From IMG/VR virus record IMGVR_UViG_3300044618_000713, positions 1 through 64,000 of that record: 64,000 bases of DNA, one strand, 5' to 3'. A program made the translations under genes and the position numbers. This DNA is from a virus. Shown piece by piece: positions 5,244 to 64,000 of the stretch (its first letter is position 1; each line of letters begins with the position of its first letter). The notes beneath the pieces are model-generated. The model searched no databases. It was not told where the DNA came from and was given only the letters and a program-made list of their open reading frames with translations.

Positions 5244-5578
5244 TACGTCACCTCGCGGCCGGACACGCGGATGTTGATGGCTGACGCCGTTCCAGCGATG
5301 GTCGAGATGAACCCGCTGATGGCCAGCACATGCCCGACCAGTTCGGGAAAAGTGTACGTTTCGGACGGCTGCAATGTCTTGGTCTTGACGATCAAGTTGC
5401 TATTGCCTGCCGTATCAGCCGCTGTCACCAAGTTGACGCTGATTGTCGCCGCCGCCGCCGAATAGTTGGTCGCCGTGAACTTGTCGATGATAGCTGTAAC
5501 CCCTACCGCCGTGTACTGCGTGGTCTGGGTGTTTTCGGCTGTTTTGGCCGGGACAAGAACTTTAACCGTTACGGTCAT
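5243..5578 (-). CDS. Small beta-rich structural protein, unknown
   Basis: A 111-aa protein dominated by alternating hydrophobic and Thr/Ser residues with no helices predicted by eye, ending in a positively charged tail. The pattern suggests a beta-sandwich such as a small decoration or fibre-associated protein. It overlaps both neighbours by a few bases and belongs to the tail part of the late operon. No family was recognised. Confidence 0.55.
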   Translation of the reverse strand: MTVTVKVLVPAKTAENTQTTQYTAVGVTAIIDKFTATNYSAAAATISVNLVTAADTAGNSNLIVKTKTLQPSETYTFPELVGHVLAISGFISTIAGTASAINIRVSGREVT

Positions 5579-6453
5579 GTTGCACCTCTGGAACTGATGT
5601 TGTCGGTAACCGTCAGTATGATTGACGGAATGGCAGGATGGACAGCGGTCGCTGGGTCACTAAACAACGACGCCGCCGTATCGGACACTTCCCACATAAG
5701 CTCAAAATAATCGCCTGCGTTCATGTCAAGCAAGAAGTTCCACGCTGCGACCGCTTCGGCGTTGTTGCCTTGGAGACGCAACGTCGTGGCTGAATTTGCC
5801 ACATCCGTACCGTTCTTGCGCAGCCAAACCCAGACGTTATGCGTGCCGCCCGCTGTGTTAACAAACTGTGCTGAGAACTGGATGTTGTAGACGTTGTGCG
5901 TGTCCACGTACACCCGCGACGTTGGCGTCCCGATATACACGCCTTGGGTAATGTCGGTCGAGTTGAACGTCATGGCGTAAGCAGTGTTGATTGCCGCTGC
6001 TGTCTGGTCGGTCGTGTCGTAGAACGATCCATACCGCAGTCGAGGCAACTGCGGCGTGTAGGCGGGGGCTACTTCCAGCGCCTGAATGCTGGATTGCAGA
6101 TTGGTTGGATCAAACGCCGCCTGCTGCGACGCTTCCAGCGCCTGAATGCTGGATTGCAGATTGGTTGGATCAAACGCCGCCTGCTGCGACGCTTCCAGCG
6201 CCTGCAACGCCGTGAGGATCGGCCCGAGATCGGACGGCAGGATACCTGACGAGATCTGCGCTGCCGACAGAATAGCGTTAAGATCTATTGCTTCGGCGGG
6301 CGGTCCTTTTTGGACGTCATCTAAAGAAACAAGGCTGTTGCCCGTCTGGTTAAACAGGCTGAGTAAGAACAAGTACCATTCGCGCGCAATCAGCCCAGTT
6401 TCCGGGTTTGTCAGCGGCACGCGCGGCGGGGTAATATTGGTGTTGTTAGGCAT
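5575..6453 (-). CDS. Tail fibre-like protein with internal 20-aa repeats
   Basis: The N-terminus contains TGLIAREWYLFLLSLFNQ, a sequence typical of phage proteins coded after the tail hub. The middle carries two identical 20-residue repeats (ASQQAAFDPTNLQSSIQALE) of coiled-coil character. The C-terminal about 150 residues look like a beta jelly roll, with DTHNVYNIQFSAQF and DYFELMWEV as in TNF/C1q-like trimer tips. This shape fits a short trimeric fibre or adaptor. Function is inferred. Confidence 0.6.
   Translation of the reverse strand: MPNNTNITPPRVPLTNPETGLIAREWYLFLLSLFNQTGNSLVSLDDVQKGPPAEAIDLNAILSAAQISSGILPSDLGPILTALQALEASQQAAFDPTNLQSSIQALEASQQAAFDPTNLQSSIQALEVAPAYTPQLPRLRYGSFYDTTDQTAAAINTAYAMTFNSTDITQGVYIGTPTSRVYVDTHNVYNIQFSAQFVNTAGGTHNVWVWLRKNGTDVANSATTLRLQGNNAEAVAAWNFLLDMNAGDYFELMWEVSDTAASLFSDPATAVHPAIPSIILTVTDNISSRGAT
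6072..6204. repeat. Perfect 60-bp tandem repeat, two copies plus 13 bp
   Basis: Units lie at 6,072-6,131 and 6,132-6,191, and the first 13 bases of the unit follow again. They are identical at every base and lie in frame inside the 5,575-6,453 gene, adding 20 residues per unit. Perfect identity points to a recent expansion. Confidence 0.95.
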
Positions 6454-47263: not shown

Positions 47264-47944
47264 TTAGGTCACGGGTCCACGAATGTTAGAGAATGCCACC
47301 GTGGAGCCGACGCTGTTGGTGGCGGTTACGCGGCACCGGATGTATTTTCCGGTGTCCGATCCAGTGAGAGTATAAGTCAATCCAGTAGCCGATGCGATGT
47401 TGGCCCATGACGGATCGTTTGGATCAGCCACGTTGCCACGCTGCCACTGGCGAGCGAACGTGATCGTAGCATCACCAGCCCATGTTCCGTTCGTCGTCGT
47501 CTGGACGTTCGTTCCAGACAGCGTGCCAGTGATGGCAGGAAGGACAGTGTTGTACGGGCCGATGGTGGCCGTCATGCTTTCGCCGCTCTCAAGTGTGGCG
47601 GTAAAGGTCACGACATCAGCCTGTTCCGCGCCGATCTGAAGGCCCTGGAGCATGAAGTCGCCGGTTAAGGTGCCGATACCAGAGATCGTGACCACGCACT
47701 CCTTAAGAAGCGCCGTGGTAGCGGTGCCCACGGAATCCGCCAAGAGGACGGTATCCTTCAGCACGCCTTCGATCTCGCAAGAGACAGAGCGCAATCCGAC
47801 ATCTGTCAGCATGGTGCGCCAGCCAAGATTGTCTTTGTCCGTGATGTCAAGTGGCTCATTATTGATCGTCACGCTGTCAGCACGAGCGCCCACGATGTTG
47901 GAGCCGTTGCGGCTTATGCGAACTGATCGGCCAGAAATAGCCAT
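47264..47944 (-). CDS. Major tail tube protein with Ig-like C-terminus
   Basis: A 226-aa protein. Residues 1-130 are the tube domain (MAISGRSVRISRNGSNIVGA, INNEPLDITDKDNLGWRTML). Residues about 135-226 are an immunoglobulin-like domain (TFARQWQRGNVADPNDPSWA, TGKYIRCRVTATNSVGSTVA), as in tail surface decorations. Tubes with such C-terminal domains carry them on the outside. Strong candidate for the main tube subunit. Confidence 0.8.
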   Translation of the reverse strand: MAISGRSVRISRNGSNIVGARADSVTINNEPLDITDKDNLGWRTMLTDVGLRSVSCEIEGVLKDTVLLADSVGTATTALLKECVVTISGIGTLTGDFMLQGLQIGAEQADVVTFTATLESGESMTATIGPYNTVLPAITGTLSGTNVQTTTNGTWAGDATITFARQWQRGNVADPNDPSWANIASATGLTYTLTGSDTGKYIRCRVTATNSVGSTVAFSNIRGPVT

Positions 47945-47983
47945 GCAAGAACCTCTTCTTTGGCCGTGATTATATCACGGAAA

Positions 47984-48412
47984 CTATGCAATCCACAATA
48001 CACGGTACAAGATGAGGCCGCGCTTGGTCTTGCCATCAGGATCGCGCGAAAAATTGCAACTATCGAGTTCTGTGGTGATGTGCGTGACGCCAGCGATAGA
48101 AAGCGGCTGGCGGCGCATCCTGCCATCGACAGCATCGACTACGGTCTTGAGATCGAGCATAGATGCGGCACGGTCCCATACGTCGATCTGCACGATGGCC
48201 GATCCACCAAGGTCATCTTTGCTGTCGAACGGATTGATTGTGTCAGCCCCGATGGTGATGAACGGGAATGCCGATTCCAACTCACTATCAGCCGCTTGTG
48301 GGACATCGGTAAAGATCGCTACGAGCGGGCTATAGTAGGTGCTGAGAAGACTGGTGACGGCGCTATCGTTAAGCCGGTTGTAGACTGCCGTCTGGAGGTC
48401 ATCAGATTTCAT
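47984..48412 (-). CDS. Tail completion protein, DUF3168
   Basis: A 142-aa protein. MKSDDLQTAVYNRLNDSAVT, VFTDVPQ-like (IFTDVPQAADS), FPFITIGADT and WDRAASMLDLKTVVDAVDGR are the DUF3168 signature. Members close the head-tail interface on the tail side (lambda U-like). It overlaps the gp10-like gene by 4 bp. Confidence 0.85.
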   Translation of the reverse strand: MKSDDLQTAVYNRLNDSAVTSLLSTYYSPLVAIFTDVPQAADSELESAFPFITIGADTINPFDSKDDLGGSAIVQIDVWDRAASMLDLKTVVDAVDGRMRRQPLSIAGVTHITTELDSCNFSRDPDGKTKRGLILYRVLWIA

Positions 48413-53598: not shown

Positions 53599-54894
53599 TT
53601 ACGAGCCAAGCTTGACCAGCTTGATGGCCTCGAAGTTGACCACATCGCCACCGACGCGCTTCGTGGTGTAGAATTCCACGTAGGGCTTGGCAGAGTAGGG
53701 ATCACGCAGCGTGCGGATGCCGAGGCGGTCCACAATCTGATAGGCTTCGCGCATATCGCCGACGGCGATGGAGAGCGAGTTGGAGGCCGGGTCCGGCATG
53801 TCCTCGAAAGATGCCACCGGATAGCCGAGCAGCGTTGCTGGCTGACCGGCAGCAATGCCGGGCGACCAGAGGTAAGCGCCATCCGAATCCTTGGCCTTGC
53901 GAACCAGAGTGAGAGTCGCGCGGTTCATGAACCAAGTGGCGTTGTTCCGGTACTGCTGCTTGAGGCCGTAGAGCGCGTTGATCAGCGCATCGCCGCCCGA
54001 GGGAGCCGCAGCCAGAGCGCCAGAAGCGCCCGTGGGGAACTGCTCGATGGTGCCGGGGAGCGTGGTGCCCGAGCCATAGGTCAGGAAGCCACGGGGCTTG
54101 TTGGAGCCGTTGCCGACAACGAAAGCGTTGGCTTCGTCACGGGCGAACTTCTCGGCAACCTTGGAAGCAAGCCATGCTTCCATGTTGATCGAGGCGTCAT
54201 CGAGCAGCTTCTGCGTAGCCTTGGGCTTCGCATAGAGTTCGTGGGCAGGAATGCGCCACTTGCCAAGCTGCGGCGTGTTGGTCTCGGGACGGCTATCCGT
54301 TTCGCCAACCCAGCCCGAAGAGGCTTCGTTGAGATCGAACAGGCCTTCGAGGGCATCCGACGAGATGACCTGGACCGAAGCGTATGCACGCATCGGGCTG
54401 GTCTCGAAGACCTTCATCACGATACGGCCAGAGAGGTCGGGATTGACCACATAGCCGCCATCGGGATCGGTGCCGACCGAGAGAGCCTTGCGCTCGTCCG
54501 GCCCCATGACTTCTTCACCCTTGCGGAGGAATGTGTCGAACGCGGCCTTGTAGCCGTCCATATCGGCAGCGCCGAATGAACCAGCAACAGCGCCACGGCG
54601 ACGGGCGTTCATGGAGGCCCACTCCTGGGCCTTGCGGTCGAGATCGACCACTTCGCCACGCTCGTCGGTGACGATGCGAGACTGACGCTTAGAAGCCAGA
54701 ACGGCTTCGTCAGCAATCTTCTGGGCCTTCTCAAGATCGGCTTCGATCTTCTGAAGCTTGGCCTCGGTCACGACATCGGCGCTGCCCTTCTTCTCAATCT
54801 GGGCAAGGCGTTCGTCGTTGGCCTTCTTGAACTCTTCGAATCCGGCGTGCAGCGCGTCAACCGCGCCGATGGCCTTCTTGATTTCCTCTGACAT
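53599..54894 (-). CDS. Major capsid protein, HK97-like
   Basis: A 431-aa protein. The N-terminal coiled coil (AKLQKIEADLEKAQKIADEA) is the delta/scaffold region normally removed by the protease. The mature fold begins near residue 115 with FDTFLRKGEE, then GGYVVNPDLSGRIV, MRAYASVQVI and WVGETDSRPET. This is the HK97 capsid family (PF05065). Its start overlaps the protease gene by 38 bp. Confidence 0.95.
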   Translation of the reverse strand: MSEEIKKAIGAVDALHAGFEEFKKANDERLAQIEKKGSADVVTEAKLQKIEADLEKAQKIADEAVLASKRQSRIVTDERGEVVDLDRKAQEWASMNARRRGAVAGSFGAADMDGYKAAFDTFLRKGEEVMGPDERKALSVGTDPDGGYVVNPDLSGRIVMKVFETSPMRAYASVQVISSDALEGLFDLNEASSGWVGETDSRPETNTPQLGKWRIPAHELYAKPKATQKLLDDASINMEAWLASKVAEKFARDEANAFVVGNGSNKPRGFLTYGSGTTLPGTIEQFPTGASGALAAAPSGGDALINALYGLKQQYRNNATWFMNRATLTLVRKAKDSDGAYLWSPGIAAGQPATLLGYPVASFEDMPDPASNSLSIAVGDMREAYQIVDRLGIRTLRDPYSAKPYVEFYTTKRVGGDVVNFEAIKLVKLGS

Positions 54895-55999
54895 GCAGGG
54901 ATTCCTTTAGCTTTGACAGTGACTGTAAAAGGGCATCGACGCCCTCGATTACGGCCTCTTCATCGCCAGCGTCCCGCTGTCTCTGTAGGGCTTTGAATCC
55001 GTGGAGAGTGAGAGCCACGGCCTCTTTACGGGAGTATCCTGCATCACGCAGGAAACGCTCGAAATCTCTTTCGGTTGTGATCGATTTGACGTTTGTCACC
55101 TTTGCATCCGGCAGCATCGGGAACGTCACAAGGCTGATCTCGAATAGGTCCACTTCCATCAGCTTGCGCACACGGCCATCACCTTCGGGTATGGCTTCCA
55201 TTGTGCGATAGCCGATAGACATGGAATCGATGGCCCCGGCGCGAAGGAGCGCCATTGCCTCGCGGCCTTTTTCTACTTCTTTGAGCAGACGGCCACGGAC
55301 AAACAGGCCACGCTCGTCCTCGTAAATGTCATCCCAGACGCCGATGGGCTGGCTCATATCGTGCTGCCATAGCATCTTGACTTTACGAGAGCCGAGCGAT
55401 TTGCGGAATGCGCCGCGTTCGACCACATCCATTCCCTGATCGACAACGCCGAACACGGAGGCATAGCCCTCGAAGACGCCATCTTGATCCGGTTCGCGCT
55501 TGATCGTGAGGGATACGTTCTTATGCTGGATCGGTTCGGACATGAACTTGTCGCCCTCTTCTCTGCGAACTATTGCGTTGGCCCATGAGCGGCCAGGATC
55601 ACCGCCCCAGAGCGCCCAGGCTATGCGACCAGCGGAAGGATATCCGTCTTCGCCGGGAGACCAACCTTGACCTTGCTTGTCCACCTCATGACGGGCGAAG
55701 TAGGACACCATCCGCTTGACGGTATCGAGCGAAAGGTTGCGGCGGTTCTTGATGTCACGGGCGCGGGCAACGCCGATCTCGGTGCCGCCACGGTTGAACT
55801 CATCACGCCATTCGAGGCCGCGTGTGGCTTCTCGTGCCATTGCCTCGTTGGGAGAGAACCCATCGGCCTTGCCTTCCCAGTTGGAAATGCAGACGGCATA
55901 ACGCTGATCTTCATCAGGAAAATCAGACATCGCCTCCTCGTCGCTCATGCAACGGGAGATGAACTCGTCTTCGTTTTCGGTCGGGCCGGGGCTAGGCAT
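54857..55999 (-). CDS. Prohead protease (S78) with N-terminal extension
   Basis: A 380-aa protein. Residues about 1-155 are an extra domain (FISRCMSDEEAMSDFPDEDQ, RRNLSLDTVKRMVSYFARHE, GRIAWALWGGDPGRSWA). Residues about 160-330 are the HK97-type serine protease: FEGYASVFGVVDQGMDVV, LWQHD with the catalytic His, DSMSIGYR with the catalytic Ser, and EVDLFEISLVTFP. It cleaves the capsid delta region during maturation. The extension is seen in other phages, sometimes as a separate protein. Confidence 0.85.
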   Translation of the reverse strand: MPSPGPTENEDEFISRCMSDEEAMSDFPDEDQRYAVCISNWEGKADGFSPNEAMAREATRGLEWRDEFNRGGTEIGVARARDIKNRRNLSLDTVKRMVSYFARHEVDKQGQGWSPGEDGYPSAGRIAWALWGGDPGRSWANAIVRREEGDKFMSEPIQHKNVSLTIKREPDQDGVFEGYASVFGVVDQGMDVVERGAFRKSLGSRKVKMLWQHDMSQPIGVWDDIYEDERGLFVRGRLLKEVEKGREAMALLRAGAIDSMSIGYRTMEAIPEGDGRVRKLMEVDLFEISLVTFPMLPDAKVTNVKSITTERDFERFLRDAGYSRKEAVALTLHGFKALQRQRDAGDEEAVIEGVDALLQSLSKLKESLHVRGNQEGHRRG

Positions 56000-56028
56000 G
56001 AGGGGAATATATCATTGCTTGATTGAAA

Positions 56029-56817
56029 TCACAACATGGCCTCAAGGGCGGCTTCGTCCACGATGTAACCAACAGCACAACGGCAGTTGATGACCTCATC
56101 GCCGGGGCCTTCTGGATCACCGGGAAACATGAGTTCGGCATCGCCAACCTTGAATTTTTCGTCCATGCCCACAGGCGGTTGAGTAGCAGCGATTCGATGC
56201 GTCTCTCTGGTGCGGTCATCGGCAGCGGCCAGCCACTCACGGGCCAAGGGCAAGCCAGTCTGTTTCGCGGCCTCCTGGGAGCCATAGTTGGCAGCGCCGT
56301 GCGTCTCGGTGCGGGCTATCATCTCGGCCCTGTAGGACGAAATCTGTGGCACCAGATCGAGGATGTATGAAGCGGTGCCGCGTTGGCCCAAACCATCCTC
56401 ATAGCCTTTCCGAACTGCCCTAATGATTTGATCGCGCGTGGTTTCAGTAACCTCTGTGATGCGGCGGCGGATCGCCTCTTGCTCAATAAAGCGCAACGCC
56501 CTGCGCGTCATGATCTGGGCGAAACTCTCTTTCGTCTCCAGCTTCAAGCCTCGCGCCTTGGCTTGCTCCATGATGCGAGAGCCGAACGTGGTGATTGATG
56601 CAATTGCCATCTGGCGATAAGTCGCCTCGATGCGATCACGGAAGTCGCGCGGCAAGGTTACATTGCCGGTCTGCTCCCAATGCTCGACCATCTCACGCAT
56701 GGCGGTTGCGATCTCACGCTGAAGACGGCCACGGAATTGAGTTGTCAGCCTATCGAGTAATGCGCCTTGACGGCGCACCTCGCGGCGCGTGTTCGAATCA
56801 ACCAGCCTTCGAGCCAT
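56029..56817 (-). CDS. Minor head protein, phage Mu F-like
   Basis: A 262-aa protein. A helical N-terminal half is followed by the Mu-F domain: AEMIARTETHGAANYGSQ, WLAAADDRTRETHRIA and EVINCRCAVGYIV. The C-terminal Asp, His and Cys residues are conserved in the family. It is a minor capsid component near the portal. It overlaps the portal gene by 20 bp. Confidence 0.85.
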   Translation of the reverse strand: MARRLVDSNTRREVRRQGALLDRLTTQFRGRLQREIATAMREMVEHWEQTGNVTLPRDFRDRIEATYRQMAIASITTFGSRIMEQAKARGLKLETKESFAQIMTRRALRFIEQEAIRRRITEVTETTRDQIIRAVRKGYEDGLGQRGTASYILDLVPQISSYRAEMIARTETHGAANYGSQEAAKQTGLPLAREWLAAADDRTRETHRIAATQPPVGMDEKFKVGDAELMFPGDPEGPGDEVINCRCAVGYIVDEAALEAML

Positions 56818-58270
56818 AGGCCAGTGCCTTGATGTCTGTCTCGGTGAGGCGCGGCTCGAATGATGCCGCTGGCGTTATGATCGAACGGGCTTCTGCTTCG
56901 TCCATTCCGGGGAAGGCAACCAGCATCATCTGGATTGCACTCTCGGCTGGCAACATGCCATCGGCAACTGACTGAACGATTTGCACCATTGATGCGATCT
57001 GTGCGCCGTTAAGAGCGGTTTCCTGCACGCTCGTGGTGCCGGTCACTGCCATGTTATTCTCTCCGGTGATGTCGCCCTCGGCAAGTGAAAGCGGAATCTG
57101 GCTAGACGCCACGAACAAGGTATCACCGCCATCGGTCGGCCCATAGCCCTTCAAGGCGCGGCGCTCATTGATGGTGAGGTCTTGTGACTGGTCAGCCATC
57201 TGCCACATCGAAAGACGCTTCTCGGCAATGGCCGGGATGCTGTCGATGTCAGGCTTGATCTCGACACCGTAGATGGAGCCGAGCCATGCGTTCCAATCGT
57301 TTACTATCATCTGAAGCAGTGGGAGCGCCGTGTCTTCCCAGAACGCCAGACGGGCCTCGGCATAGTTCGAATAGGTGTTATCGCCAGGAATGCCGAGAAG
57401 CTGCGGCGGCACGCCGAAGGCCAAGGCAACGTCACGGGCCGAGGAGAACTTCACCTCGATGATGCCCATGTCGGTCGGCGACAGGCCCATCTGCTGCCAA
57501 TCAAGTCCACCTTCGAGGAGCATGGGGCGACCGGCGTTCGAGGAGCCGGAATATTGCTCTTCGATCTGGGCCTTGAGGCGGTTAAAGTTCTCGTCTGATA
57601 GCGTGCCGGAATCCTTGACGGTCAATGCACCTGATGGACGCGCCGAGTTCTGGAGCAAGGCTTGCATCCAGTTCATGGCTTCGTTGTTCTGATCGATGGC
57701 GTAGGAACCCGCTTCGATTGGGCTCATGCCGTACCAATCGTTCAACGGGTTGAACAGCTTCAAGTGCCGCACATCGCATTCGAGCGTGCGAGGGTCCATC
57801 TCCCATCGCACTTTGTTCTGCCCGAGCGTGTACTCGTATGCAGACGGGATGCCATTGGATGACGGAACAATTTTCATGCGGTCAGGTCGAAGCTGGTAAA
57901 GCTCCTTGACCTCGCGGCCCACCATGAACCGCTCTTCGTAGCCGTTTCCCGCGATCATCAGGAACGACACCTTGGCGCGAACGTAATCGGAATAGGACTG
58001 AAGCGGATTCGGACGCTCGAGCAGCGTGATCAGCGGATGATCGACCAGTTCCGTCTCGCCACGGTAGACGCCAAGATTGACGGATGCAATGGCGTCAGCG
58101 ATCCGGTTGATGGCCTGATATGCCACCACGTTCTTGCCATAGGCTTCCTTGGCGAAGCTCTCGTAGTTGCGTGGAGACCACACGGCTTGGCCTGGATTGA
58201 TCACCATCAGCTTGGCGGCAGCGGATTCCTTGCGCTCTTGCGGGCGGCGGAAACGGTCAAAAAGTCCCAT
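56798..58270 (-). CDS. Portal protein, HK97-like
   Basis: A 490-aa protein. YQAINRIADAIASVNLGVYR, PLITLLERPNPLQSYSDYVR, DVRHLKLFNPLNDWYGMSPI and FGVPPQLLGIPGDNTYSNYA are classic landmarks of the HK97-type portal (PF04860). The Gln-rich C-terminal part after residue 400 is typical. Forms the DNA channel at one capsid vertex. Confidence 0.95.
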   Translation of the reverse strand: MGLFDRFRRPQERKESAAAKLMVINPGQAVWSPRNYESFAKEAYGKNVVAYQAINRIADAIASVNLGVYRGETELVDHPLITLLERPNPLQSYSDYVRAKVSFLMIAGNGYEERFMVGREVKELYQLRPDRMKIVPSSNGIPSAYEYTLGQNKVRWEMDPRTLECDVRHLKLFNPLNDWYGMSPIEAGSYAIDQNNEAMNWMQALLQNSARPSGALTVKDSGTLSDENFNRLKAQIEEQYSGSSNAGRPMLLEGGLDWQQMGLSPTDMGIIEVKFSSARDVALAFGVPPQLLGIPGDNTYSNYAEARLAFWEDTALPLLQMIVNDWNAWLGSIYGVEIKPDIDSIPAIAEKRLSMWQMADQSQDLTINERRALKGYGPTDGGDTLFVASSQIPLSLAEGDITGENNMAVTGTTSVQETALNGAQIASMVQIVQSVADGMLPAESAIQMMLVAFPGMDEAEARSIITPAASFEPRLTETDIKALAYGSKAG

Positions 58271-58278
58271 CTAGAACC

Positions 58279-59664
58279 TCACAAGGCGCGAACCGCAGGA
58301 GCAGACTGCGGCGCGGTCATATCGGAAATTGCACTCATTGCGGCGTCTATCATATCATCATGTGTGCCGTTGGGAAAGACCGAGGCCTCGGACATGAAAT
58401 CGGCCAGGTGATCAATGTTCGACATGATGTAGACGTTGCCAGATTGGACGTAGGGCGCGGCATCGAAGGCGCGGGTGATCTTGTCCACGTTGCGCTGGAT
58501 CGGGATGATCGGAATGCCCTCGCGTTTTAGCTTCTGGATCAGGCCGGTGCCGCTCACCTTGTCTTCGACCTTGAAGGCTCGAAGCGGCCCCTTGTCCGAT
58601 GCTGCCAAATGCTTTTTCCAGAATGCCCGAGCCATCGTTTCCAGTTCCGGAGCCTCCCACTTACCGCGTGCCATATCGAGCAGCACGATCTGTCCGGTGT
58701 GCGTTTGGCCCCAGCATTGGAAAACGGAATAGTCATTCTGCTCCTTTGTCTTTTGCGCGGTGTCGGCATAGATCGCCCGCCACTTGAGCGGCGGCATTGC
58801 CTCATAGAAGCGCCACCATTCGTCCTTGAAGATGCCGCCGCCAAGCGGTGCGGGTCTTTGCATGTATTGACCAGCGAAAACGTATGGGCTGGATTGCTCA
58901 AGGCGGTCGAGCATCTCGGGAGGGAATTGTTCCGGCCAGAACGATGAGCCATCTAGATCACGGGCAGGGATGACAAGGCTATCCCAATGTTCACCGGAGC
59001 CGCCGCCTAGAAGCCAGCCGGAAAGATCATCCTCGTGGAGCCGCTGCATGATGACGATGATTGGCGTGTCGGTCTTGTTGAGGCGCGACTGTATCGTGGT
59101 CTGATACCAGTCGATCACGTTCTGGCGCATGATGGGCGAGGTTGCCTCACCGGCCTTGTGCGGGTCATCGATGATAATGGCACCGCCGAAGCCGTCTCGC
59201 ATCTTGCCAGCGCCATAGCCGGTGATGGTGCCGTCTGCGCCGGTTGCGTAGACGATACCGCCGTGTGATGTGCGGAACTCATCCTTGGCCTTGCTATCGT
59301 CTTGGAGCGAAACCCACGGGAATATCGATCGATAGGTCTCGTGCTGCATCATGGCGCGGATGTCGTATGCGTTGGATGTGGCGAGGCGCTTTGAATAGCT
59401 GGCGTGGATGAATTCGGCATCAGGCACGAGGCCGATGGTCCAGGCGATGAATGCCTTGACGGCAATCTCGGTCTTGCCGGATCGAGGCGGCACGTTGATG
59501 ATGAGCCGCTTGATGCGGTGGGCGAAGACCTGTTCGAGGCTGCGGCAGATTGCCCGTTGATGCTCGTTCGGCAGCATCTCTTGGTTGGTGCGGGCGCGGT
59601 AGATCGTGCGTGCGAACTTATAGAGCCGTTGATGGTTGGCGGCTCGATGCTCACTCGGCGTCAT
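58279..59664 (-). CDS. terL: Terminase large subunit (phage B)
   Basis: A 461-aa protein, start MTPSEHRAANHQRLYKFART (ATG 59,664), overlapping the small subunit by 14 bp. Walker A NVPPRSGKTEIAVKAF, Walker B GAIIIDDPHKAGEA, nuclease acidic sites YADTAQKTKEQND and DDMIDAAMSAIS. This is the PPRSGKTE type common in HK97-like siphoviruses and differs fully from the phage A enzyme. Confidence 0.95.
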   Translation of the reverse strand: MTPSEHRAANHQRLYKFARTIYRARTNQEMLPNEHQRAICRSLEQVFAHRIKRLIINVPPRSGKTEIAVKAFIAWTIGLVPDAEFIHASYSKRLATSNAYDIRAMMQHETYRSIFPWVSLQDDSKAKDEFRTSHGGIVYATGADGTITGYGAGKMRDGFGGAIIIDDPHKAGEATSPIMRQNVIDWYQTTIQSRLNKTDTPIIVIMQRLHEDDLSGWLLGGGSGEHWDSLVIPARDLDGSSFWPEQFPPEMLDRLEQSSPYVFAGQYMQRPAPLGGGIFKDEWWRFYEAMPPLKWRAIYADTAQKTKEQNDYSVFQCWGQTHTGQIVLLDMARGKWEAPELETMARAFWKKHLAASDKGPLRAFKVEDKVSGTGLIQKLKREGIPIIPIQRNVDKITRAFDAAPYVQSGNVYIMSNIDHLADFMSEASVFPNGTHDDMIDAAMSAISDMTAPQSAPAVRAL

Positions 59665-60034
59665 CGTAAATCTTGTTGAGCGCAGCAAGGACGGCGGCAG
59701 CGACTGGCTCCGGTCTTAGTGATCCATCTTCGTTGGAGATGTCCACGGTTTCGCGCCAGCGTGCGCGCGTCTTGAGCCAGAAGATCATGGCGGTTGTATC
59801 GCCAGCCTTTGCCTTGTTGAAGAGCGCACCGCCGATGGTTGCGTTGGCCTTGTCCCTAGCTTGCTTCAGTTCAGCGGAATAATACTTGTAGAGCGTCTCT
59901 TTGTGGATGCCGAGGATTTCGGCAATGCTCTCATGCGTGGTGCCGACCGTTGCGTGAAGCGAAACCAGCTGGCGCTGCGCGTCTGTCGGTGCATGAGGCT
60001 TGCGGCCTAGCTTGCCTTTGGTTTCTTCGGTCAT
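59651..60034 (-). CDS. terS: Terminase small subunit (phage B)
   Basis: A 127-aa protein, MTEETKGKLGRKPHAPTDAQ, then a helix-turn-helix (TTHESIAEILGIHKETLYKY) and an oligomerisation helix (LKQARDKANATIGGALFNKA, DTTAMIFWLKTRARWRETVD). This is the usual order for small terminases. The ATG overlaps the methylase stop as ATGA. Confidence 0.85.
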   Translation of the reverse strand: MTEETKGKLGRKPHAPTDAQRQLVSLHATVGTTHESIAEILGIHKETLYKYYSAELKQARDKANATIGGALFNKAKAGDTTAMIFWLKTRARWRETVDISNEDGSLRPEPVAAAVLAALNKIYDDAE

Positions 60035-61098
60035 GATGCAATTCCTTTTGGCATTAGCCATTGATCAATCACAGCACGCGCAACTTGCTCAGTCATCTTG
60101 GGTGGAACGCTCATGCCAATCATGTATTTGCCAATCTTGTCGGTCTTGGCGTGATAGTCATCTGGGAAACTGCCGAGGCGTTTCCATTCGCGGAAAGTAA
60201 GTGTTCTAGGTGAATCCCAATGATTTATCATCTCATGCGTGGCTGTTAGTGAATTGGCTGGAATCAAAGCATGTAACCTTTTATGATTCCATAGCTTCTC
60301 CTTTAGACCTGCCCTCACTACAGCGTCAGCATATTGCTCGCCTTGTTTTGTTTTCGGCCACCAAGTCAAATCTGTATTTGAGACGTGACGAGTGTCTTCT
60401 AGTTCTTCTTTGATCAGATGTTGCACGTCGCAGCATGACTCTTCCGGACCTATCCATCGATGCGTTGGTGACAACTTCAACGGCAACACTTCAATGTCAT
60501 TCCGGATTGCAACAAAAAACACCCGCTCTCTCCGCTGCGGAACTCCACAGTCAGCAGCATTTAAAAGAAACAATTGAGGCCGATATCCAATCTCACGAAA
60601 ACGCGCCATGACCATCTTGGTATAGCCCTTGGCATTGCCAAGGATCATTCCCTTGACGTTTTCAGCAATTGCAACTTTCGGCTTGAGCCGTTCAACAAGG
60701 TCAAGGTAATCAAAGAAAAGGTCAGACAGCACTTGCTTTGCCTGGCCTTCACGGAAGTGTTTGTCCTTTCCCCACGCCTTTTCGCGGCTTCCTGCCATGC
60801 TGAATGTTGAGCAGGGCGGCGAGCCATCAAGGATGTCGAGTTTGAAGAGTTCCGGAGGAAGATCAGCAGTCAGCAAGTCACGGATTGGACAAAGAAAATA
60901 ATGAGGTGGATTGAGATTGCGCTTGTAGTGCCAAGCCATTTCAGGGTCGATGTCATTTGCTGCAATGATTTCGCATCCGGCTCTTTTGTAGCCCATTGAT
61001 GATCCGCCACCGCAAGCAAAGGTGCTCATGACCTTAATGCCATTCTTTGGCACTGATGCAAGGTCAGTCAAATTCCAAGCGCAATCAGGCTTATTCAT
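60031..61098 (-). CDS. DNA cytosine-5 methyltransferase (phage B)
   Basis: A 355-aa protein from MNKPDCAWNLTDLASVPKNG. Motif I FACGGGSSMGYKRAG, motif IV GSPPCSTFSMAG with catalytic Cys (PCS in place of the usual PCQ), motif VI AENVKGM, motif VIII QRRERVFFVAI, and IGMSVPPKMTEQVA (motif X). It lies in one operon with ParB-like and terminase genes, so methylation may mark DNA for protection or packaging control. Lower GC than its neighbours. Confidence 0.9.
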   Translation of the reverse strand: MNKPDCAWNLTDLASVPKNGIKVMSTFACGGGSSMGYKRAGCEIIAANDIDPEMAWHYKRNLNPPHYFLCPIRDLLTADLPPELFKLDILDGSPPCSTFSMAGSREKAWGKDKHFREGQAKQVLSDLFFDYLDLVERLKPKVAIAENVKGMILGNAKGYTKMVMARFREIGYRPQLFLLNAADCGVPQRRERVFFVAIRNDIEVLPLKLSPTHRWIGPEESCCDVQHLIKEELEDTRHVSNTDLTWWPKTKQGEQYADAVVRAGLKEKLWNHKRLHALIPANSLTATHEMINHWDSPRTLTFREWKRLGSFPDDYHAKTDKIGKYMIGMSVPPKMTEQVARAVIDQWLMPKGIAS

Positions 61099-61585
61099 CA
61101 AATTCAAATCCGCACTTTGGACATCTATGATCCATTGCATATTCGTCAGGATCAATTTCTTTTGTGCTGCTATCTGGAACAACAGGCTGATCAAACATTG
61201 ACGCCATCTCGCCTAGATCGAAGCCGGTGATAGTCAGATCAAACTTCATGTCTTCGAGGTCTTTCAATTCAACCTTGAGCATCTCGAAGTCCCATCCGGC
61301 ATCGAGCGCCATCCGGTTGTCGGCAATGACATAGGCGCGCTTCTGGGCCTCCGTGAGGTGGCTTGCTTCTACGCACGGCACTTCCTTCAGTCCCAGCTTG
61401 TTCGCCGCCAGGACGCGCCCGTGGCCCGCCACGATGCCATTCTTGCCGTCCGTCACCACCGGGTTGATAAACCCGAACTCCTTGATCGAGGATGCGATCT
61501 TGGTGACCTGGGCCTCGGAGTGTGTCCTGCTGTTGCGGGCGTACGGGATGAGGTCGGCGGTTGGAATCAGCTTATAGGTCAGCAT
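61091..61585 (-). CDS. ParB-like domain protein with C-terminal zinc ribbon
   Basis: A 164-aa protein, MLTYKLIPTADLIPYARNSR, then VTKIASSIKEFGFINPVVTD, IVAGHGRVLAANKLGLKEVP and VIADNRMALDAGWD. This is the ParB/sulfiredoxin-type nuclease domain seen beside phage methylases. The end DHRCPKCGFEFDE has one Cys pair, half of a zinc ribbon. AAGGACAG precedes the ATG. A nuclease or CTP-dependent DNA-binding role is possible. Confidence 0.8.
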   Translation of the reverse strand: MLTYKLIPTADLIPYARNSRTHSEAQVTKIASSIKEFGFINPVVTDGKNGIVAGHGRVLAANKLGLKEVPCVEASHLTEAQKRAYVIADNRMALDAGWDFEMLKVELKDLEDMKFDLTITGFDLGEMASMFDQPVVPDSSTKEIDPDEYAMDHRCPKCGFEFDE

Positions 61586-61769
61586 TGCTGTCCTTTTTAT
61601 TGTCGGTTTTCTGGACTGCCTTAACGGCAAGTTCGATGTATCGCGGGATCGGTTGCTTGCCGGTCTCATAGGCTCGGAAGGTGTTGCGTGCGAGGCCAAG
61701 GGCTTCTGCTGCCTTGCGCTTCGATAGGGCAACGGAGGTGCGCCATTGGATGAGTTCGTCTGCTGTCAT
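61572..61769 (-). CDS. Small HTH (XRE-type) regulator
   Basis: A 65-aa protein, MTADELIQWRTSVALSKRKA, AEALGLARNTFRAYETGKQP. This is a compact Cro/CI-type helix-turn-helix. It is the first gene after the terminator at 61,787 and overlaps the ParB-like start by 14 bp, so it may control the packaging and morphogenesis operon. Confidence 0.75.
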   Translation of the reverse strand: MTADELIQWRTSVALSKRKAAEALGLARNTFRAYETGKQPIPRYIELAVKAVQKTDNKKDSNADL

Positions 61770-61786
61770 GCGGCGCAATATAGAGC

Positions 61787-61813
61787 AAAAAAAACCCCGC
61801 CACAAGGGCGGGG
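61787..61813 (-). terminator. Intrinsic terminator after HTH-sigma gene
   Basis: A 7-bp perfect stem CCCCGCC/GGCGGGG with 5-base loop and, on the minus strand, a run of eight T. It separates the regulatory cluster from the late operon, so the latter needs its own promoter or antitermination. The HTH gene begins 18 bp further. Confidence 0.85.
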
Positions 61814-61851
61814 CTGAGTTGCTGCGGCGGGAGGAGTAAACCGCAGGGGAA

Positions 61852-62418
61852 TCAATACCGATATGGATGCTTTGGCACGGCGACACCCATGCGTCTCGCC
61901 TTCTCCCGCATCTCGCGGAAGGCCTTCAATTCGTTCTGCCGGATGCGTTCGCGGGTGACGCCATAGTCCTTGGCGATGTCCTCGAGCGTCTGTTCCGGTT
62001 CGCCGGTGAGGCCAAAGCGGGCTTCGATCATGGCGCGGCGCTTTGGGTGGGTGATGGCAGCGACCAGCTTGGCGAGAAGCGGCTTGTCCACTTCCAGGCT
62101 CGATGGTGCGGCGATTTGGGCAAGTTGCTCGGCGTCGATCTCTGCCTCGATGGAGTTGCGGGCGGTGAGCAGGTCTCGCATGTGGTGCGGCCAGAGTTCT
62201 TCCGGCTCGGTGCGGAGCGCGGAGGAGATGTCCATTGCGAGTTCTGACCAGTCGCCGTTGGCGATGGGCTTTTCGCGGAAATTTATAATCGCGTTGATGT
62301 GTTGCGGAGACTTGCCCATGAAGCGGGCGAGATCGGCTTGTGTGGCAAACCCTGCGGCCTTGATGGCGCGAAGGAGTCTGGCATTGCGAACGGTGACTTT
62401 GACGGCGAAGTCGGTCAT
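61852..62418 (-). CDS. Regulator joining HTH and sigma-70 region 4
   Basis: A 188-aa protein. Residues about 15-60 are an XRE-like HTH (FATQADLARFMGKSPQHINA, with NFREKPI). Residues about 125-180 match sigma-70 region 4 (KRRAMIEARFGLTGEPEQTL, EDIAKDYGVTRERIRQNELK), which binds -35 promoter elements. No regions 2 or 3 are present, so it cannot be a full sigma factor. It could be an activator or an appropriator of host RNA polymerase for late genes. SD is not obvious. Confidence 0.8.
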   Translation of the reverse strand: MTDFAVKVTVRNARLLRAIKAAGFATQADLARFMGKSPQHINAIINFREKPIANGDWSELAMDISSALRTEPEELWPHHMRDLLTARNSIEAEIDAEQLAQIAAPSSLEVDKPLLAKLVAAITHPKRRAMIEARFGLTGEPEQTLEDIAKDYGVTRERIRQNELKAFREMREKARRMGVAVPKHPYRY

Positions 62419-62669
62419 GGGGTGGCCTCATAGGGGGGTGGCAGTGGCATCCATGCGGTTACGTTATTGAGCTTCTCGCCTCGGGGTCCGTCGTCGTGCC
62501 ATCTCTGGCTCGTCTTGTTCCATCGGGCGATGCGGATGCGATGGAAAGTTTCGACGGGACCGCCGAACATGGCAAGCTCGAATTTGCTTGTCTCGTAGGT
62601 ACAGGTGACAAGGACACATCCTTCGGGCTTTCGCTCGCCTTTGGTGATAGGGGTCCAAGTGGCGGTCAT
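62415..62669 (-). CDS. DUF551 protein
   Basis: An 84-aa protein, MTATWTPITKGERKPEGCVL, VTCTYETSKFELAMFGGP and an end TAWMPLPPPYEATP. The W.PI...P..G..VLVT....WMPLP pattern is DUF551, frequent in phages, function unknown. ATG overlaps the previous stop as ATGA. Confidence 0.75.
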   Translation of the reverse strand: MTATWTPITKGERKPEGCVLVTCTYETSKFELAMFGGPVETFHRIRIARWNKTSQRWHDDGPRGEKLNNVTAWMPLPPPYEATP

Positions 62670-62869
62670 TCGGTCCTCGTGACTTTGGTGCCGATGATGC
62701 CTTTGAGGCTGATCTTGCGGCAGGTGTAGCGGCGTGGTCGGTAGTAGCGGGCGGCATCGTGCTGGAGCGATTTGGAACTGCGACCGGGAGCGAAGAAGGA
62801 TTCGCCGATCTCGATGGTGCGCCACGGATACTTTGGCGGGCGTCCATTGGGCTTAGGCTGGCTCGTCAC
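62666..62869 (-). CDS. Small basic protein, 67 aa
   Basis: MTSQPKPNGRPPKYPWRTIE, then FFAPGRSSKSLQHDAARYYR. GRPPKYPW followed by IGESFF and a basic Arg-rich body recalls small phage DNA-binding-like proteins. It overlaps both neighbours by 4 bp. Function unknown. Confidence 0.6.
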   Translation of the reverse strand: MTSQPKPNGRPPKYPWRTIEIGESFFAPGRSSKSLQHDAARYYRPRRYTCRKISLKGIIGTKVTRTE

Positions 62870-63108
62870 TTGGAGGCCTCCTCTGCCCTATAAACGATCC
62901 AGATCGAACGTGCGCGGGGCGTCAGGTTGCCGATGCTGATCGCCATGTCTGCCATCTTGATGCGGGCGGCTTTGGACTTGGTGCGGCGGCGCATCTCCTC
63001 GATGACGAGGATGGCTTCCTCGCCTGTCTGGGGCAGCTTGCGGGGGCAAGTAGCAAGTTCGGCCATTGCGGTGTGGCCTTTGGCGATGATGTCGTTTGCG
63101 GTGGTCAT
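62866..63108 (-). CDS. Small helical protein, 80 aa, unknown
   Basis: MTTANDIIAKGHTAMAELAT, then EEMRRRTKSKAARIKMADMA. ATG is preceded by AGGAGCCACCA. Charged helices. No family recognised. Confidence 0.6.
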   Translation of the reverse strand: MTTANDIIAKGHTAMAELATCPRKLPQTGEEAILVIEEMRRRTKSKAARIKMADMAISIGNLTPRARSIWIVYRAEEASK

Positions 63109-63155
63109 TGGTGGCTCCTATTGGGTGGGTGGGTGAGGGGCGCTAGGCCCCTCGG

Positions 63156-63332
63156 TTAGGCAACCGGCTCGGCGCGGAAGTTGGTGAGGCCAGCGAACCC
63201 GAAGGCCACCGCATCGCGCTTGGCGCGTTCGATGCCAGCCTCGGGCGACTTGCGCCATGTAAAGCATTCAAGAACCGAACCATCGGCGCGGTCGGCGAGG
63301 ATGCGGTAGGAAGCGGAAGAAGCGAGAAGCAT
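63156..63332 (-). CDS. Small protein, 58 aa, unknown
   Basis: MLLASSASYRILADRADGSV, then TWRKSPEAGIERAKRDAVAF and GFAGLTNFRAEPVA. A near-perfect ribosome site AAGGAGG stands seven bases before the ATG. It is the first gene of the leftward regulatory cluster, downstream of the operators at 63,399-63,440. A longer frame over the same bases is a shadow. Confidence 0.65.
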   Translation of the reverse strand: MLLASSASYRILADRADGSVLECFTWRKSPEAGIERAKRDAVAFGFAGLTNFRAEPVA

Positions 63333-63786
63333 GTAACCCTCCTTGGGCTGTGCAGTGGCGGGATTGCCCTGCGCTGTTGATGTCCCTTTATCCCATACCT
63401 TGCAGAAACTTGCAAGCGTTATGTTGCAGAAAAGTGCAAGAAAGCGCCATCCCGATAAACGCCAATACTAAGCCTTTGAAATTGCTAGGCTTTTAATTAA
63501 CGTCCTATATAGCCGTAAGCACCAAAAACGCCAAAGAATTGCAGATTGGCTTGTGCTTTCAATGGCTTAGGCCGATCACGGCATTAAAGGCAATTAAATG
63601 ATTTATGGGTGAAGGCGGAAGGGGAGACCCGGACGGGTGGCTGGTGGTGGGTGGTGGCGTGGTGGTACTGTAATATATATAAATAGTATAATTCTCTCTA
63701 TATACATACAACACTAGCAACATCAAGCACTTGCACGATCCATTTACGGGTGACGCCCCACCCTCGAATAAGACCCCTTAAATAAG
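63333..63786. other. Non-coding control region with AT-rich tract
   Basis: No gene is supported over 454 bp. It holds tandem operator-like boxes (63,399-63,440), a candidate leftward promoter across them (TTGCAA, 17 bases, GATAAA on the minus strand), and an AT-rich tract at about 63,670-63,710 with TAATATATATAAATAG. The tract is preceded by a G-rich run on the plus strand. It resembles a phage control region. Confidence 0.5.
63399..63440. promoter_or_regulatory. Two tandem inverted-repeat operators
   Basis: CTTGCA-gaaact-TGCAAG (63,399-63,416) and GTTGCA-gaaaag-TGCAAG (63,423-63,440) stand 24 bp centre to centre, about two helix turns. The same face of DNA would be bound by two dimers. They overlap the candidate promoter for the 63,156-63,332 gene, so they are likely repressor sites, perhaps for one of the HTH proteins nearby. 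Confidence 0.6.
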
Positions 63787-63812
63787 AAAAGGCCCCGGAT
63801 CGCTCCGAGGCC
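63787..63812 (-). terminator. Intrinsic terminator at right edge gene
   Basis: A 9-bp stem (GGCCTCGGA with TCCGGGGCC, one G-U) with 4-base loop on the minus strand, followed by TTTTCTTATT. It closes the gene that enters from the right edge (63,837-64,000). Confidence 0.75.
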
Positions 63813-63836
63813 CTATCAAAATGATATGTCACTAGG

Positions 63837-64000
63837 TCAATCTTCCGTAGCCTCCTGTGCCGGGATAAACCACGCCATGCGAGGCCTTCCTCGCTGGCCC
63901 TTGTTCGTGTGGCGGCATTGGATGCCGTAGTCGGCAACCAGCTTGTCCATCACCTGGCCCCGGTCTCGGAGCGTCAAGGCGTCAAACGCAGAGATGCGAT
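63837..64000 (-). CDS. Partial gene at right edge, C-terminus of unknown protein
   Basis: A 53-residue C-terminal part runs in from beyond the window: ISAFDALTLRDRGQVMDKLV, ADYGIQCRHTNKGQRGRPRM, AWFIPAQEATED and a TGA at 63,837. The terminator just downstream supports the frame. No family recognised. A different frame on the same strand over these bases is a shadow. Confidence 0.6.
   Translation of the reverse strand, partial: RISAFDALTLRDRGQVMDKLVADYGIQCRHTNKGQRGRPRMAWFIPAQEATED

Follow-up and report, generated by a model that had tools for sequence, protein, structure and literature searches.

The window, the whole 64,000-nucleotide stretch of DNA that was analysed, comes from a 75,554-base record of an uncultured virus. 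The ORF at 61852-62418 (minus strand, ATG at 62418, stop at 61852) encodes a 188-aa fusion of a helix-turn-helix (HTH) domain and a sigma factor region 4, and the name HTHR4 is used here for its protein. Its ATG overlaps the stop codon of the preceding ORF, as ATGA, and it is the final gene of a leftward early operon that starts at approximately 66.9 kb with a 66-aa ORF and contains, between that ORF and HTHR4, a Prim-Pol/DUF3987 gene and small ORFs. The 66-aa ORF was read by eye as a putative HTH protein; Pfam gave no match for it. HTHR4 is followed by a terminator (61793-61815, minus) and then by the late operon with the packaging genes, in the order 65-aa small HTH protein (phrog_6962, 61572-61769, minus), ParB-like protein, methyltransferase, terminase small subunit (TerS, 59651-60061, minus), terminase large subunit (TerL, 58279-59688, minus), portal, prohead protease (54857-55999, minus, ATG at 55999) and capsid; the tail tube gene lies at 47264-47944 (minus). 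The terminator behind the gene and the late operon beyond it are as the first-pass annotation had described them. The TerL of the window corresponded to phrog_38, and phrog_2 was unsuitable as a terminase probe for these phages. A second terminator-like hairpin was observed at 63789-63814 (minus), after the Prim-Pol/DUF3987 gene and ahead of a long AT-rich intergenic stretch.

From the letters alone, the protein had been proposed to carry a Cro-like HTH at its front and a full region 4 at its back, and both assignments were borne out. The Pfam family Sigma70_r4 matched residues 125-172 with an E value of 5e-11, exceeding the cutoff, and HTH_3 matched residues 26-46 with an E value of 3e-4 and 21.2 bits, slightly below the 23-bit cutoff; no DnaA family was among the Pfam matches of HTHR4. 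An AlphaFold2 model, made from an alignment of 31 rows, consisted of two domains (mean pLDDT 86, pTM 0.51), with pLDDT minima at residues 106-108, between the domains, and at the C-terminal end; a flexible linker joining the two domains would fit the low pTM. In the model, a strand (4-9), helices at 13-21, 27-34, 38-45 and 59-68 and a further strand (89-94) come before residues 106-108, and after them the region 4 helices span 112-120, 125-135, 145-152 and 156-177. Structural comparison matched the front domain to ImmR (Z 9.4), CylR2 (Z 8.6) and the P22 c2 repressor (Z 8.5) over 62-65 residues and the rear domain to the region 4 domains of primary sigma factors (maximum Z 9.7), including 1ku7, on -35 DNA (Z 8.6, 69 residues); best Z values of 7-8 are common without kinship, and these matches are moderate. 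The Cro/CI-type HTH domain was accordingly placed, by model and structural comparison, at residues 9-80 (62179-62394, minus), with residues 38-45 as its recognition helix, and the region 4 domain, by Pfam, model and structural comparison, at residues 110-177 (61888-62091, minus). The reading frame was intact in 33 of the 34 loci translated across the matched stretch, the exception (L012) having a stop two codons early.

The first-pass annotation had named the absence of the region 4 residues for beta-flap or -35 contact as its refutation; judged by the -35 recognition helix, it was not refuted. The recognition helix of the rear domain, VTRERIRQ (residues 154-161), is identical to that of Staphylococcus aureus sigmaA domain 4; residues of this helix touch the -35 bases. 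HTHR4 thus has one trait of the sigma-70 family, a region 4 with its -35 recognition helix. Regions 2 and 3, which had been described as missing, were not found by Pfam in HTHR4, nor did families for either region appear in a tally of 23 Pfam families, at an E value of 0.01, for 31 family members. HTHR4 is therefore confirmed to join a Cro/CI-type HTH to a sigma region 4, with regions 2 and 3 both missing. It was rejected as a full sigma factor, since it is without region 2, the part for core binding and -10 melting. In split sigma factors of the SigO/RsoA type, region 2 comes from a second phage gene; this arrangement was also rejected, since Sigma70_r2 had no match in the 75,554-base record, which is possibly incomplete, and the whole record gave a single PF04545 match. 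One of 26 records examined (G035, that of the distant relative L067) did contain a separate region 2 protein, a sigma-like protein with regions 2 and 4 at 5281-5751. T7-type RNA polymerase (PF00940) gave no match in the 26 records and none in the controls either.

A search of IMG/VR with the single HTHR4 protein gave 34 loci, and a profile search gave 77 loci, from the best 80 of 404. Close relatives in IMG/VR numbered 35, with at least 87% identity across the matched part; L033 and L056 were 54-55% identical to HTHR4. An alignment of the window protein, two close relatives and 28 others of 24-52% identity was assembled, omitting near copies (e.g., L061, L064, L067 and L072) and loci matching mainly region 4 (L092 and L095-L097). 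All 31 members matched Sigma70_r4; the HTH families matched were various, with HTH_3 in 12 of the 31. VTRERIRQ was one seed of the IMG/VR profile search, so the search itself accounts for part of its invariance in the distant relatives; the loci of the single-protein search were obtained with other seeds. Among INPHARED phages, tblastn matched 47 records, by region 4 only, with no full-length relative and no match covering 80% of the query, and megablast with 54000-63900 of the window gave no match. A GTDB search with the single protein gave no relative. The GTDB profile search, biased toward sigma factors by its VTRERIRQ seed, yielded loci of which the best 80 of 570 are considered here, several aligning across residues 26-175. 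Twenty of these best 80 were inspected: 18 had frames of at least 363 aa in which at least 228 residues precede the match, the layout of full sigma factors, whereas the other two were cut at a contig end; another locus, L105, also reaches a contig end, with 309 residues before the match. Foldseek matched HTHR4 to BFVD entry A0A0F7L6V6 across 203 columns (E value of 2e-9). This uncharacterised 200-aa protein of an uncultured marine virus, labelled a Sigma-70 region 3 domain protein, is 24% identical to HTHR4, with an rmsd of 12.7, indicating that the domains are placed differently. Among the titles and abstract openings found in the open-licence PMC literature, none named a phage protein joining an HTH to sigma region 4.

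Immediately past the HTHR4 stop is an inverted repeat, CTGCGG-N13-CCGCAG (61822-61846, minus), a candidate hairpin or operator. It is followed by the terminator hairpin CCCCGCCCTTGTGGCGGGG with its T run, by TATATT, and, after 7 nt, by the ATG of the first late gene. The loop and 3' arm of the terminator contain the -35-like hexamer TTGTGG, and together the two hexamers form TTGTGG-N17-TATATT (61777-61805, minus), a candidate late promoter (P1) with a leaderless start. A promoter had been suspected before 61,769, and the conservation of this element supports it. The 44-nt block from hairpin to ATG was 98.3% identical among 17 loci, compared with third-codon-position identities of 80.5% in HTHR4 (84.6% where the residue is unchanged) and 82.6% in the next gene. 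The block core was present in one copy in each of 35 close loci; such counts are not independent events, since many of the records are closely related and some are near copies. The strict block was present in 33 loci; in all of them the spacing of TTGTGG and TATATT was 17 nt, as the pattern itself demands, and in 32 the ATG lay exactly 7 nt past TATATT. This distance was kept where the first gene was a different one (L002, L036 and L042), and TATATT was kept in L045, where the flanking bases were changed on both sides. In the exception, L057, another sequence follows TATATT, with a Shine-Dalgarno-like AAGGAG ahead of a later ATG. Two loci fell outside the strict block, L044, with one T fewer at the point where the contig ends, and L050, with TATCTC in place of TATATT; these come from the same records as L016 and L026. 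The arms of the inverted repeat differed in L018 and L202 (GCGATG/CATCGC) with the dyad kept (L018:3405-3445), and that of L018 still folds into a hairpin. Behind two distant relatives, a scan for terminators and promoters found hardly more than chance would give.

Two further sites of this kind were found in the window. P2 (TTGTGA-N17-TATATT, 56006-56034, minus) lies 6 nt before the prohead protease ATG at 55999, its TTGTGA overlapping the end of the preceding gene, and P3 (TTGTGG-N18-TATAAT, 47969-47998, minus) lies ahead of the tail tube gene. P2 was kept in 19/19 relatives spanning the site and P3 in 4/4 relatives fetched. The -10 of P3 sits inside a perfect palindrome, CCGTGATATAATCACGG, an operator-like feature. 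Only 2 of 212 window ORFs (ATG start, at least 60 aa) have a -10-like hexamer positioned so that transcription could begin at the ATG, those at 61769 and 55999, and both have TTGTGR 17 nt upstream of the -10. With up to one mismatch, TTGTGG-N17-TATATT had two sites against 0.06 expected, a count reached in none of 100 shuffles. At two mismatches it had four sites against 1.6 expected, which 8 of 100 shuffles reached, not a clear enrichment; the promoter signal therefore resides in the near-exact sites. The relaxed pattern TTGTGRN16-18TAWAWT, widened only after P2 and P3 had been seen, had three sites in the window against 0.06 expected, all on the late strand: one at the start of the late operon, one ahead of the prohead protease and capsid genes, and one ahead of the tail tube gene. 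Across the whole record, TTGNNN-N16-18-TAWAWT had four sites, all on the late strand and in the late region; three were TTGTGR, and no TTGAC site was among them. Strong late expression would be expected at the places of P2 and P3. As judged from these sequences, P1 to P3 are best read as a phage late-promoter class with HTHR4 as the putative activator, and we infer that HTHR4 acts on all three.

The block and the protein occur together. Block-bearing records numbered 37, of which 34 contained HTHR4, two were cut by the contig end before the gene (L199 and L202, with the block at contig bases 43 and 836) and one was without it; 33 of the 37 were HTHR4 loci of the IMG/VR searches, and L190 shows the last 13 codons only. 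The pair was thus present in 34 of 35 informative records. The remaining record, L197 (a 21-kb contig), has the block and early genes and is missing HTHR4 and any region 4 match. At L197:9548-13172, HTHR4 and the ORF before it are absent, and a helicase-like gene comes after the remains of the small upstream ORFs.

The HTH domain behaves differently from the block. Between two alleles of the HTH cassette, A and B, the two worst 30-nt windows (codons 31-50) were 50-70% identical in DNA, and in L018 the same two were 43-56% identical; most remaining HTHR4 windows were 83-100% identical, falling to 70-80% toward the 3' end. The swapped cassette includes the recognition helix and exists in at least three alleles (window 62269-62349; L013, L018, L046, L052 and L053). 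Alleles A and B carry the same junction block. The recognition helix varies and the block is constant, so it is not obvious that the block is read by the HTH. This argues either that the constant promoter would be partnered by the constant region 4 and not by the HTH, or for an action of the HTH at other places. No 9-mer tracking allele A or B gave a site at a constant place.

Late-operon genes followed HTHR4 on the same strand in 34 of the 35 close relatives, beginning with a small HTH or ParB gene and continuing with TerS, TerL or portal to the contig limit; in the 35th, L044, the contig ends inside the junction block. In L039, L045, L018 and L055, a module that was read as putatively helicase-like separates HTHR4 from the late operon; the block is behind the module, adjoining the late genes. 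In these four and L054, TerL is 57-59% identical to that of the window, TerS was not detected and the neighbours are conserved, which by its sequence is a terminase module swap. For distant relatives, 29 flanking genes were considered at 18 chosen loci. In L066, L086 and L062 the homologue was close to TerL or portal, and in L063, L069, L072, L074, L076, L077, L088, L090 and L099 it was close to genes for DNA polymerase, primase or nuclease; in L091 it was followed by a NinG-like gene, and in L056 an integrase was nearby. In L208-L211, a second stretch of 126 residues, 52-53% identical, lies beside the homologue of the tail tube gene (window 47264-47944).

Since the gene stands just before a conserved promoter-like switch for the structural genes, HTHR4 probably helps to steer the host RNA polymerase to the late genes. 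The first-pass annotation had offered two roles, recruitment of the polymerase to late promoters or blocking of -35 recognition; through the late-promoter signature, recruitment is now the better supported of these candidate roles. As the leading explanation, we hypothesize that HTHR4 is an early-expressed activator that switches on the late genes via host RNA polymerase, and we hold the case for and against this to be about evenly balanced. In such a scheme, the candidate late promoters would carry a -35 that is weak for the host sigma factor, and region 4 of HTHR4, on the -35 element and/or the beta-flap, would supply the missing contact. The HTH domain may bind DNA nearby or elsewhere, the polymerase with host sigma regions 2 and 3 would open the promoter, and transcription from P1 and P2 would start at the ATG. 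Several observations count against the activator. Its helix, equal to that of a primary sigma factor, predicts a preference for TTGACA and not TTGTGR, so that TTGTGR would be a weak site needing help or a box read otherwise. The HTH cassette is swapped with a constant block and L197 has the block without HTHR4, against a simple version of the activator, and distant relatives often place the gene near replication genes rather than terminase. A more specific proposal is a one-protein sigma appropriation, in which HTHR4 would replace host sigma region 4 at the beta-flap with host regions 2 and 3 still in use, moving the polymerase from TTGACA to TTGTGR promoters in an uncultured phage family, with the HTH as an exchangeable address module; we put this forward only tentatively, as possible but on balance doubtful.

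Alternatively, HTHR4 may act in antitermination, as Q and GafZ do, loading at a promoter so that the polymerase passes the terminator at 61793-61815 and later ones and the early transcript feeds the late operon. The gene does precede a conserved terminator dividing early from late genes, a place comparable to that of lambda Q, and a NinG-like gene follows the homologue in the distant relative L091. GafZ of Caulobacter is reported to be an antiterminator, and a sigma-like C terminus is described for its R. capsulatus homologue, GafA (PMC11150451, PMC9638019). However, the conserved -10-like hexamer at a fixed distance from the ATG and the presence of P2 and P3 within the late region point to new initiation, and no homology of HTHR4 to GafA was found, so that we regard antitermination as unlikely. 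Another function considered was inhibition, in which region 4 would compete with the sigma factor of the host for the beta-flap or the -35 DNA and shut off host or early phage promoters, with the HTH targeting chosen promoters. The intact region 4 fold, unaccompanied by regions 2 and 3, could take the place of the sigma tail, and the swapped HTH cassettes suggest a specificity tied to something besides the constant late block, but inhibition would leave both the conserved late-promoter signature and the position at the early-late junction unexplained and seems improbable. Finally, a conventional repressor or autoregulator acting on the early region, with the late promoters read by host RNA polymerase alone or with another phage factor such as the 65-aa HTH protein, would fit the late block without HTHR4 in L197 and the variation of the HTH alleles beside an invariant block, but it is equally improbable given that the pair is kept in 34/35 informative records and that no simple repressor making use of a region 4 domain is known to us.

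To our knowledge, late-gene switching is known for few phage groups beyond the classical models. With a stand-alone region 4 fused to a repressor-type HTH and a defined set of promoter candidates, the idea that a phage may exchange the tail of the host sigma factor alone becomes open to direct testing. Since the family spans phages with different replication and packaging genes, one answer could help to read many unannotated genomes.

Among known regulators, GafA of the Rhodobacter capsulatus gene transfer agent and the split GafY/GafZ of Caulobacter pair a DNA-binding domain at the front with a sigma-like one and activate phage-like gene clusters, according to three reports (PMC11150451, PMC9638019, PMC6363796). 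As described there, they share with HTHR4 a front DNA-binding domain, a sigma-like DNA-binding domain at the back and the lack of a full sigma factor. GafA/GafYZ is presented there as a direct activator of the capsid gene cluster via host RNA polymerase, with GafZ acting on terminators, and the GafA front domain as DnaA-like, whereas the HTHR4 front matches Cro/CI-like repressors. DUF6456 (PF20057) was present in the controls RDJL Phi 1 (gp38) and Caulobacter and had no match in the record of HTHR4. Comparison of the HTHR4 family with RDJL Phi 1 gp38 gave an hhalign probability of 0.5% and a BLASTP E value of 2.5, and a GafA homologue was rejected. The Ltr/RinA late regulators of Gram-positive phages are reported to occupy the same gene place as HTHR4 (PMC13123087). 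In close relatives, HTHR4 shares that place, at the end of the early cluster and upstream of the packaging genes and a predicted late promoter, but there was no clear family match, and the match to phrog_836, "late transcriptional activator," was weak (E value of 0.049). If the activator model is right, HTHR4 would work like GafA/GafYZ and Ltr/RinA.

In T4, two proteins, MotA and AsiA, act on the host's own region 4, whereas HTHR4 carries its own. This sigma appropriation redirects host polymerase to phage promoters (PMC6755090). The complex of lambda cI and sigma region 4 on DNA (PDB 1rio) contains both kinds of partner that the halves of HTHR4 match, with moderate Z values of 8.8 for the rear against 1rio chain H (sigma region 4) and 8.5 for the front against the P22 c2 repressor (3jxb). 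The partners in 1rio are separate proteins, whereas in HTHR4 they are combined in one chain.
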